Source of the DNA: a virus
Virus record (IMG/VR): IMGVR_UViG_3300000956_000004
Coordinates: 1-42,224 of that record
Direction: 5' to 3' (one strand)
DNA length: 42,224 bases
Below are positions 6,052 through 13,631 of this stretch, one piece after another (the stretch's first letter is position 1; each line of letters begins with the position of its first letter). The position numbers and the translations under genes are program-made. Under the pieces are notes generated by a model that had not been told where the DNA came from, did no database searches, and saw nothing but the letters and a program-made list of their open reading frames with translations.

Positions 6052-6052
6052 C

Positions 6053-6226
6053 ATGCCTAAGAGTCAAGTGCCGCGCGGCGTTAACCCAATGACAGATCTC
6101 GGCAGCTATGCACGAGGAGCTAATGACCCTACCAAGGGATTTGTACCCACTAAGAAAGGAGAAGAGCTCGACACGTCGCGCTGGCAGCGACAACGGGCGC
6201 TTGCGAATACCTTGAGGAAGAAGTAA
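6053..6226 (+). CDS. 57-aa hypothetical protein
   Basis: A small basic protein (57 residues) starting 2 nt after the terminase stop, with GAGAG 6 nt before the ATG; its TAA overlaps the portal ATG. The sequence is Gly/Pro/Lys-rich, with a basic helical end (SRWQRQRALANTLRKK). Position and coupling indicate a real gene. Function unknown; a head-assembly or packaging accessory role is a guess. Confidence 0.7.
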   Translation: MPKSQVPRGVNPMTDLGSYARGANDPTKGFVPTKKGEELDTSRWQRQRALANTLRKK

Positions 6227-8301: not shown

Positions 8302-8563
8302 TATTCAAACACGAGAGCGGAATGGACCAGACGTCCTTCCAGATATCGAACCCTTCGTTTCACCTGTCGACGGAACAATCGTGTCAGGGCGTGCAGCATT
8401 ACGAGAGCACAATCTCCGTAACGGTGTCACCAATGCAGCTGACTATAAAAACGAGTGGGCCGACGCAGCTAAGCGACGGGCTGATTTTTTCACTGGTCAA
8501 GCTCGCGACTCAAATCGGGCGCGAGAAATAGCCCAGGCTTGGGAAAAACATAGGAGAAGGTAA
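8234..8563 (+). CDS. Conserved head-region hypothetical protein
   Basis: A 109-residue basic protein beginning MPLRRKWRWNPDLNQLVEVD, overlapping the portal 3' end by 68 nt with GGAGG 9 nt upstream. The phrases PFVSPVDGTIVSGRAALREH and GVTNAADYKNEW recur in small proteins between portal and scaffold in many podo- and siphoviruses. Role unknown, probably in head assembly. Its stop overlaps the scaffold start. Confidence 0.8.
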   Translation: MPLRRKWRWNPDLNQLVEVDLSDIQTRERNGPDVLPDIEPFVSPVDGTIVSGRAALREHNLRNGVTNAADYKNEWADAAKRRADFFTGQARDSNRAREIAQAWEKHRRR

Positions 8564-9711
8564 TGAGCGTTGAAGAGAATGATCTGAGAAAAGACCTGGA
8601 GGCTGCCTTTGAGCAACACGCCGAAGAACCCGAACACCAAGAAGCGGGGCGATCCTCAGCGGACACCCCGGAGCCCATGGGGAGTCCCCCGGCCGCCGAA
8701 GGAGCGGAAGCCGTTGCCACCGAGGGAGCCGCCGAGGCTAGCGCTGATAGCGGACGAGACGAAAAAGGTCGTTTCAAGGGTAAAGAACCCGGCCCTGGAA
8801 CCGAACCAGCTGCTGCTAAACCTGAGGGCGCTACAAAGACCGACCCTGCAGCTGAAAAGCCGCCGGAAGGCCAGCAACCAGAAGTAATTCCGCCGCCGGC
8901 TGGATTGAAGGCTGCTGCGCGCGAACATTGGGCGAAGGTGCCTCGGCCGGTGCAGGAGGAGATTGTACGCCGCGAGAAGGAAACTGCACAGACACTGCGA
9001 CAGTCTGCACAGGCTCGTCAAATGGCGCAGGAGTTTCAAAGCGTAGTCAACCCATTTCTGCCCATGATTCAGTCTCAGGGCAGCAACCCGATGCAGGCGG
9101 TGAAGAATCTTATGACTACTGCTGCAGGCCTCACGGTCGGCACGCAGGTTCAAAAGGCTCAAATCGTACGTGAAATCATCCAAAACTACGGAATTGATGT
9201 TGCCACGTTGGATCAGGTTCTGTCTGGACAACCTCTTCAACAGCAACAGGGAGCTCCACAGCAGCAGAGTCAGTTAGCTCCGCCGCCTTGGGCGAGCCCT
9301 ATCTTCCAATTCATGAATAGCGTACAGCAGCAGCGACAGCAGCGCGAGCAGCAGATTCTATCTGAGGCAGAAGCTGAAACTGAGGCGTTCGCAGAAAAGA
9401 ATGAATTCTTTGAAGATGTGCGTGAAACGATGGCTGACATTATGGAACTTGGCGCAAAGAGAGGAAAAATCATTTCCATGGAAGATGCTTACAAGCAGGC
9501 AATCGGGTTTGATCCTGAATTAAGCAAGATTGTTAGCCAGCGAGAAGCTGCGAAGAAGTCACAGACACAGCAACAGAACATGCAGCGTACTCGTAACGCA
9601 GCTTCCAGCATCGCTGGCGGGCCCAAGGGAGGCCCAGCTGGTAATTCTGGTGGCGACGACAGCCGCCGCTCCGCCTTGTCTGAGGCATGGGATGCGCAGA
9701 TGGGCAGGTAG
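8563..9711 (+). CDS. Scaffolding-like protein
   Basis: A 382-residue hydrophilic protein directly before the capsid gene. Residues 1-110 are acidic, Ala/Pro/Glu-rich and disordered; 110-330 are helical and Gln-rich (QQQQGAPQQQSQLAPP, QQQRQQREQQ); the C-terminus is basic (RRSALSEAWDAQMGR). This acidic-disordered plus helical layout and gene order fit a scaffolding protein that organises coat subunits and leaves before packaging. It has a strong AGGAGAAGG ribosome site. Sequence identity to a specific family is not claimed. Confidence 0.8.
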   Translation: MSVEENDLRKDLEAAFEQHAEEPEHQEAGRSSADTPEPMGSPPAAEGAEAVATEGAAEASADSGRDEKGRFKGKEPGPGTEPAAAKPEGATKTDPAAEKPPEGQQPEVIPPPAGLKAAAREHWAKVPRPVQEEIVRREKETAQTLRQSAQARQMAQEFQSVVNPFLPMIQSQGSNPMQAVKNLMTTAAGLTVGTQVQKAQIVREIIQNYGIDVATLDQVLSGQPLQQQQGAPQQQSQLAPPPWASPIFQFMNSVQQQRQQREQQILSEAEAETEAFAEKNEFFEDVRETMADIMELGAKRGKIISMEDAYKQAIGFDPELSKIVSQREAAKKSQTQQQNMQRTRNAASSIAGGPKGGPAGNSGGDDSRRSALSEAWDAQMGR

Positions 9712-9734
9712 GGGCTTGCACTGGTAAAAAAGTC

Positions 9735-9805
9735 GTGGTACGGTACGCGCAACCTAGAACGAGTAGGACTTCCACTCTCTTAGGGAGCGCTGTACCGGCC
9801 CCCAC
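9735..9805 (+). ncRNA. Structured RNA element between scaffold and capsid
   Basis: A long nested hairpin can be drawn by eye: GTGG/CCAC, CGGTAC/GTACCG, GCGC/GCGC, CCTA/TAGG and GAGT/ACTC, in order from outside (9735) to a 9-nt apical loop (9765-9773). That is about 22 pairs broken by small internal loops. It is non-coding, has no U tract, and lies 42 nt before a tRNA-like gene. It could be an mRNA-processing or stability element that sets capsid expression, or a packaging RNA. The function is inference. Confidence 0.6.
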
Positions 9806-9846
9806 CCGATGAGAGAACGATCCCAAAGGCAAAGGTTAAGCGATAC

Positions 9847-9919
9847 GCCCTCTTAGTTTAACGGCTAGAACACCGACACCTTGCGTGTGGAGGTTTGGGT
9901 TCAAATCCCATTGAGGGCC
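9847..9919 (+). tRNA. Degenerate tRNA-like gene
   Basis: Seventy-three nt with canonical spacing. The acceptor is GCCCTCT/TGAGGGC (6 of 7 pairs), the D-arm GTTT/GAAC with AACGGCTA loop, and the T-arm TTGGG/CCCAT with TTCAAAT loop (4 of 5 pairs). The anticodon arm is damaged: with standard numbering only 3 of 5 pairs form, position 33 is C instead of U, and the triplet reads CTT. An alternative ACAC/GTGT pairing leaves a 5-nt loop CTTGC. There is no encoded CCA. Decoding identity is uncertain; it may be inactive or a tRNA mimic. It sits 24 nt before the capsid ATG. Confidence 0.6.
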
Positions 9920-9943
9920 CTCTTAATATCTTTGGAGATCTAC

Positions 9944-10915
9944 ATGACTTTCGCAAATCCAAACTATAGCGATATCCTCGCTACGACTATTCAGAGTCGC
10001 ACCCGCAAAATTGCGGACAATGTGACGAAGAACAACGCGCTTCTGGCCCGACTGGAACAGCGCGGCAACATCAAGACTTTTTCTGGCGGTAACGTCATCC
10101 TGCAGGAACTGTCGTTCGCTGAGAACGGCAATGCTTCCTGGTACAGTGGCTATGATCTGCTCCCGGTCGCGGCGCAGGACGTGATCAGCTCTGCAGAATT
10201 CTCCATTAAGCAGGCAGCCGTCCCAGTTGTAATCAGCGGTCTGGAAATGCTCCAGAACGCAGGCAAGGAGCAGATGATAGATCTCATGGACGGACGTCTG
10301 GCTGTTGCAGAGTCTACCATGGCCAATCTCGTGGCGGGTGCACTGTACTCTGACGGTACTGGTTACGGCGGCAAGCAGCTGGTCGGCCTGAACGCAGCGG
10401 TGCCAGTGACCAACACGAACACTTATGGCGGCATCGACGCCAATACGTGGACGTTCTGGCGCAACTACGTGGACAACAATGCGGCTGCGGATTTGACTCC
10501 GGCACTGATTCAGGGTCACCTGAATCTGGCTTGGGCGAATCTGGTCCGCGGCATGGATCGCCCGGATTTGATTGTTATGGACTCTACGACTTGGCAGAAC
10601 TACATGGCCTCGTTGCAAGCGCAACAGCGCTTCACGGATCCCAGCTCTGCAAAGCTTGGCTTCCCCACGATTAAGTTCATGGACGCGGACGTCGTTCTGG
10701 ACGGCGGTATTGGTGGTTTCTGCCCTGCAGGTACCATCTTCCTGCTGAACACGAAGTACGTTCACTACCGTCCACACTCGGCCCGCAACATGGTTCCGCT
10801 GTCGCCTAACAAGCGTTACAGCATCAACCAGGATGCGGAAGTGCAGATTCTGGCCTTCGCTGGTAACCTGACTATGTCTGGTCGCCAGTTCCAGGGCCGT
10901 ATCGACTACAATTAA
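9944..10915 (+). CDS. Major capsid protein
   Basis: A 323-residue HK97-fold-type coat protein. The ATG at 9944 is preceded by GGAG with good spacing; the in-frame extension upstream would run through the tRNA-like gene and is rejected. Recognisable are an N-terminal helix-rich arm, GGNVILQELSF, and a region (LYSDGTGYGGKQLVGLNA) typical of phage capsid proteins. DLIVMDSTTWQNY and NTKYVHYRP mark the axial domain, and the C-terminus has LAFAGNLTMSGRQFQGR. Codon choice is strongly biased to GC-ending, common codons, as expected for the most abundant protein. Confidence 0.92.
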   Translation: MTFANPNYSDILATTIQSRTRKIADNVTKNNALLARLEQRGNIKTFSGGNVILQELSFAENGNASWYSGYDLLPVAAQDVISSAEFSIKQAAVPVVISGLEMLQNAGKEQMIDLMDGRLAVAESTMANLVAGALYSDGTGYGGKQLVGLNAAVPVTNTNTYGGIDANTWTFWRNYVDNNAAADLTPALIQGHLNLAWANLVRGMDRPDLIVMDSTTWQNYMASLQAQQRFTDPSSAKLGFPTIKFMDADVVLDGGIGGFCPAGTIFLLNTKYVHYRPHSARNMVPLSPNKRYSINQDAEVQILAFAGNLTMSGRQFQGRIDYN

Positions 10916-13468: not shown

Positions 13469-13628
13469 CGCTGCTTCTGTCGCCTCTACTCTAGGTGGTG
13501 GTGCCATTGTCACTGGTACCATTCAAGGGCTGGCGCAGCTACTGCAAATTCTGGCCAGCAACAAGGGGCTAGGTACGCCGCCACTGCTCAAGAGCACCAC
13601 GGCTAAAGAGCAGCTTAACCCGGAGTGA
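13428..13628 (+). CDS. Small Ala-rich structural-region protein
   Basis: A 66-residue protein with AGGAG 6 nt before the ATG at 13428, nested against the glycosyltransferase end by 41 nt. Its middle is hydrophobic and Gly/Ala-rich (GGGAIVTGTIQGLAQLLQIL), compatible with one membrane-active segment. Unknown function. Confidence 0.6.
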   Translation: MVTYTALASALNANAASVASTLGGGAIVTGTIQGLAQLLQILASNKGLGTPPLLKSTTAKEQLNPE

Positions 13629-13631
13629 GCG

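Follow-up and report, generated by a model that had tools for sequence, protein, structure and literature searches.

The window analysed here is a virus record of 42,224 bases, and the region under study lies in its head operon, between an open reading frame in the scaffold position and the gene of the major capsid protein. The features on which the following account is based are these:

8563-9711, + strand: open reading frame of 382 aa in the scaffold position, the upstream neighbour, placed by position
9716-9744, + strand: predicted promoter of the sigma70 type (TTGCAC-17-TACGGT, the -10 element preceded by TG), from an ad hoc score; kept in the close relative L002
9735-9805, + strand: hairpin of the original prediction, with a significant fold alone and with its flanks; kept in L002
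9751-9815, + strand: upstream strands possibly competing with the SD helix, from complementarity and folding energies
9819-9840, + strand: central (anti-SD) strand GAUCCCAAAGGCAAAGGUUAAG, able to pair with the SD strand; identical in L002
9847-9920, + strand: tRNA gene or tRNA-like element, called Gln-TTG by ARAGORN and matched by Rfam RF00005
9922-9940, + strand: SD strand with the SD GGAG at 9934-9937, pairing with 9819-9828 and 9835-9840
9944-10915, + strand: major capsid protein gene (phrog_9953, E 1.8e-112)

Both homology and the SD point to the ATG at 9944 as the capsid start. The upstream gene is called scaffold by position only, because it has no PHROG match. The gap between its stop at 9711 and the capsid ATG (232 nt) is the largest of three among the chosen head ORFs. 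It had been described as the only substantial gap of the head operon, which does not hold, since gaps of 174 nt (6052-6225) and 163 nt (13469-13631) also occur in the head region. How phages produce capsid protein in large excess over scaffold protein from adjacent genes is an old question, and the content of this gap may bear on it.

The original prediction had placed here a nested hairpin of about 22 pairs with GTGG, CGGTAC, GCGC, CCTA and GAGT arms. The minimum-energy fold of 9735-9805 contains these arms among its 26 pairs, with an energy of -33.2 kcal/mol and a z score of -3.93, and none of 200 dinucleotide shuffles was as stable; refolded with its flanks, the hairpin had a z score of -2.8. 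Its counterpart in L002 (69 nt) folds at -31.3 kcal/mol, and there the pairing of GUACGCGC with GCGCGUAC is uninterrupted because a 2-nt deletion takes out the bulge. The remark that the hairpin carries no U tract was also borne out, as no intrinsic terminator (a stem followed by a U tract) was predicted on the + strand in 9712-9943. A coding function was considered for the frame running from GTG 9735 to a TGA in the window and was rejected, the 2-nt indel shifting L002 into another frame.

L002 is the sole close relative found, with a capsid protein 93% identical to that of the window. The two leaders show no difference in the 59 positions of 9731-9789 and one in the 42 positions of 9799-9840, while fourfold sites differ at 71 of 150 positions in the capsid gene and at 70 of 116 in its upstream neighbour (47-60%). 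Between the tRNA and the capsid start, 52 of 97 aligned positions differ. The near-invariance of the leader core beside such divergence at fourfold sites indicates that the leader is under strong selection, and the 2-nt indel within it indicates that the selection does not act on a protein. Of the original prediction, the part that is supported is a structured RNA which could bear on capsid versus scaffold expression, and this RNA is strongly conserved. When viral contigs were scanned with a DNA pattern for window-like leaders, only the L002 contig was returned; a first scan of genome contigs gave no relative, and a phage collection searched with 9600-9960 gave no match. This leader type is represented by two sequences only.

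The promoter-like site lies directly after the stop of the scaffold-position gene. Its score, an ad hoc weighting of this analysis that was used for the window and the relatives alike, was reached by none of 100 shuffles; the site was not called in a stricter promoter scan. The predicted -10 element (9739-9744) overlaps the outer 5' arm of the hairpin (9735-9750), and the predicted RNA start is near 9751. RNA starting there would be devoid of 9735-9750. If the promoter is real, the hairpin could thus be complete only in transcripts that read through from upstream. The stability of RNA from 9751 on is unremarkable (z -1.1), the mean of 37 promoter-bearing leaders being -2.6.

The SD of the capsid gene lies outside the hairpin, and its partner is found at 9819-9828. 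This strand, GAUCCCAAAG, is complementary to CUUUGG-A-GAUC (9930-9940, the A bulged), so that the GGAG at 9934-9937 is buried. The SD helix of 10 pairs and an inner helix of 6 pairs (9835-9840 with 9922-9927) flank the tRNA, which occupies the apex of the long structure. The predicted probability of pairing between the SD and upstream sequence was 0.83 in the window against 0.39 in shuffles (p 0.02). Upstream strands of the leader offer pairings that may compete with the SD helix, namely AACCU 9751-9755 with 9833-9837, GGA 9766-9768 with 9821-9823, and CUCUC 9775-9779 with 9811-9815. In single-sequence energy calculations for a growing RNA that begins at 9751, AACCU (9751-9755) was paired with AGGUU (9833-9837) when the end was at 9840, and the SD helix was closed when the RNA reached 9940. 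In the full leader of the window, the closed state was favoured over the open one by 5.1 kcal/mol. From these models, the capsid SD appears to be hidden by leader pairing, and the hairpin appears to be one part of a folded RNA leader that precedes the major capsid gene.

The hairpin had been judged not to fit a tRNA, which is correct for the hairpin itself; the tRNA call, overlooked in the original prediction, sits separately and starts 41 bases past it. The covariance model RF00005 scored 36.8 bits at 9847-9920 against a gathering score of 29, and ARAGORN drew a cloverleaf. A tRNA as a rule carries U at position 33 and has well-paired stems. The element of the window departs from both rules, with C before the called anticodon (position 33) and one mismatch each in the acceptor and anticodon stems, and no CCA is encoded. 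The L002 tRNA is called as Met(CAT), against Gln(TTG) in the window, and its CCA is encoded; the tRNA has thus been swapped while both arms of the SD helix persist. A search for tRNAs covered 60 loci and, in a wider scan, the sequence before 374 capsid starts over a distance of at most 700 bases; in the wider scan only the window and one contig, listed as L002, L142 and L312, carry one. The presence of a tRNA in both the window and L002 would fit a functional unit of a tRNA and its structured precursor, in which the leader aids tRNA maturation and the nearby capsid gene is incidental. We consider such a unit improbable, as the tRNA was replaced and the leader kept, and as the other capsid starts still have folded leaders.

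The burial of the capsid SD was followed across related phages. The sample comprised 220 capsid loci from viral and genome collections and four phage records; 209 had enough upstream sequence, and these were dereplicated to 107 leaders, 78 belonging to capsids of at least 60% identity and 29 to capsids below 60%. Start codons were chosen by script; that of L011 was wrong and was corrected by hand only in the permutation tests of SD pairing. In the 78 leaders the mean SD-upstream pairing was 0.645, which exceeds both the 0.353 of shuffles (Wilcoxon 5.9e-11) and the 0.335 of 336 other genes from the same loci (Mann-Whitney 6.5e-14). Pairing of at least 0.6 was found in 54 of the 78, and a p value of 0.02 or less in 20 of them. 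The 29 leaders below 60% capsid identity showed no excess of SD burial (0.200 against 0.291). Moreover, when own and swapped upstream strands were compared, the own strands paired better in the 78 leaders (0/20000 permutations), the corresponding value for the 29 being 3838/20000. The same SD-burying arrangement is seen in single folds of the leaders of three annotated phages, Stenotrophomonas phage BUCT555 and Myxococcus phages Mx8 and Mx9. The sequences of the relatives' leaders are unrelated to that of the window, and it is the burial of the SD that they have in common.

Several families can be distinguished among these leaders. After two further scans, 16 leaders were found to share a motif of 49 modelled positions just 3' of the promoter-like site. 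The motif is made up of CUAG, of a stem that covaries, and of a strand, for example UCCCCAAG, which is also able to pair with the SD region. The CUAG pattern was present in 17 leaders, of which L019 was dropped as a chance match; the similar-looking L155 is absent from the alignments. The covariation score of the 16 was 0.311 against 0.176 in shuffles (0/500), it exceeded all slid controls, and a model-fitted alignment agreed with it. Their SD helix is pair-specific (0/20000 permutations); their competing 5' pairing is not (4640/20000). A covariance model of the motif, R1, gave 18 matches in the 100 loci searched, each of them immediately before a capsid gene. Sixteen of the matches are sequences from which the model was made, one (L327) duplicates L326, and L230 is the sole new match (25.1 bits, E 0.0028). 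Membership of the window in this family was rejected, its best match with filters off reaching 3 bits (E 1.7). The second family comprises 11 leaders, including that of BUCT555, with a GACACC hairpin and a small hairpin holding the anti-SD; its covariation score was above 500 of 500 shuffles, and the number of pair types was within chance (426/500). In both covarying families, strands are common to the folded domain and the SD pairing. Covariation is seen in two families of relatives; the window's own leader type, known from two sequences, does not contribute to it. Because the window is not a member of a modelled leader family, its own mechanism is inferred, and the support for it is mostly borrowed from relatives with unrelated leader sequences.

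A third set of 27 leaders, about 140 nt long, carries invariant CAGCCACCG, CCCAC and CGGACUG; the alignment used, A6 (L041 and 26 others), contains 27 of the 31 leaders assigned to this set. RNAalifold returned a partial pairing of 14 pairs, 6 of them with two-sided changes, which was not counted as covariation. The A6 leaders look like a compact structured RNA, in which an internal loop could be flanked by pairing of CCG with CGG and of CAG with CUG. At the gathering score, Rfam gave no match in the leaders of 20 relatives; lax searches gave none for L041 and L021, and for L224 only a sub-threshold microRNA match on the other strand. When all Rfam 15 families were run against the window, at the gathering score or with E up to 5, the tRNA and a sub-threshold match opposite it were returned, so that among all leaders searched the matches were limited to the tRNA and chance-level ones. 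A match of 9735-9805 to any Rfam family, looked for as a sign of a phi29-type pRNA, was not obtained. These searches bear on the suggestion that the hairpin is a packaging RNA comparable to pRNA. The suggestion draws on the proximity of the head genes only, and it is very improbable in view of a leader with no Rfam match of its own, of a terminase and a portal that fall in ordinary phage families (phrog_2 and phrog_12082), and of relatives whose leaders differ in sequence yet have SD burial in common.

Promoter-like sites at p 0.05 or less were present in 28 of the 78 related leaders, and the complementarity of promoter to leader was slightly above chance (33/20000 permutations). Pairs crossing the predicted RNA start were unusual in 2 of 37 promoter-bearing leaders, and a group-wide rule of hairpins across the start was rejected as weak on this count. 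L228, L346 and L212 have long, near-perfect inverted repeats (about 15 pairs) with the predicted -10 element at their centre and a sequence that differs from phage to phage. The conserved block of the window likewise spans the -10 element and might be conserved mainly as DNA, as a promoter with an inverted-repeat operator for a phage or host regulator. This is doubtful, because conservation extends through 9840, well past the promoter, and the covariation in relatives lies within the transcribed leader. Somewhat less unlikely is the processing role of the original prediction, a cleavage site for RNase III or another nuclease that would cut the read-through scaffold-capsid mRNA and so set the ratio of the two proteins. 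A long stable stem, kept in L002 and placed between genes whose products are needed in unequal amounts, speaks for such a site, but internal loops break the stem, and the relatives retain the SD burial and not this hairpin, with start-crossing pairs unusual in only 2 of 37 as noted above.

The reading that we prefer, with a probability of roughly 0.6, is that the hairpin belongs to a cis-acting leader RNA that controls the translation start of the major capsid gene. At the level of sequence it is based on the conservation of the leader, the conserved promoter-like site, the complementarity that buries the SD and the covariation of the SD helix in relatives. A separate promoter would serve the capsid gene. 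The central strand 9819-9840 would pair either with the SD, in the closed state favoured in folding, or with upstream strands of the leader, in the open state. Capsid translation would remain low until the balance shifts from closed to open. The shift could be brought about by the order in which the RNA folds as it is transcribed, by binding of a protein or ligand, or by removal of the tRNA, the last through its processing enzymes and in the window and L002 alone. In read-through RNA the hairpin may form and lock up the competing strands, which would favour the closed state in a way reminiscent of phage T4 gene e; this step is weakly held because crossing pairs are unusual in so few leaders. 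A bolder extension, which we regard as unlikely, would make RNA switches of the leaders of major capsid genes throughout a large phage group. In these switches the SD and an SD-like decoy within the leader would compete for one anti-SD strand, and folded domains of several unrelated kinds would do this work for the same gene; in the phage of the window, whose tRNA occupies the apex of the SD helix, tRNA processing would then cut that helix and so release capsid translation.

Known systems share parts of this arrangement. In translational riboswitches and in lambda cIII, which is governed by alternative RNA structures, a strand likewise has two alternative partners, the SD and a strand upstream; here, unlike there, several unrelated folded domains serve one gene, the competing pairing of the window is predicted, and no ligand is known. 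In phage T4, the translation starts of genes e, soc, 49 and I-TevI are buried, and the inhibitory structure of gene e is formed by longer early transcripts (PMC3014915). The arrangement predicted for the window resembles theirs in placing the SD or start codon in a helix of a phage mRNA and in an inhibitory structure that longer transcripts would form. It differs from T4 in that the arm overlapping the predicted promoter belongs to a hairpin without the SD. A second helix, on the downstream side of the predicted RNA start, contains the SD and carries a tRNA in its apex, and the gene is that of the major capsid protein. In phage RNA thermometers, a helix of the 5'-UTR buries the SD as in the window leader (PMC11182007); compared with such thermometers, the leaders of the relatives hold conserved folded domains beyond a melting helix. 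No paper devoted to structured RNA leaders in front of the major capsid gene turned up in a literature search, which does not establish their absence from print. If the preferred reading is true, a covarying, SD-burying leader, of common design and unlike sequences in many capsid genes, would constitute a widespread and unrecognised layer of control over the most abundant phage protein.

Further variation was noted upstream of related capsid genes. A further leader type, in which the elements GAACAC and GUGCCAUC recur in opposite arms, is present in L012, L013, L016, L021, L047, L071 and L088. In L034, L038, L075 and L077 the gap upstream of the capsid gene is about 605 nt and apparently encodes a small protein, the end of which, judged by eye, we take to resemble an HNH homing endonuclease. 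The capsid leader may be a hot spot of insertion.
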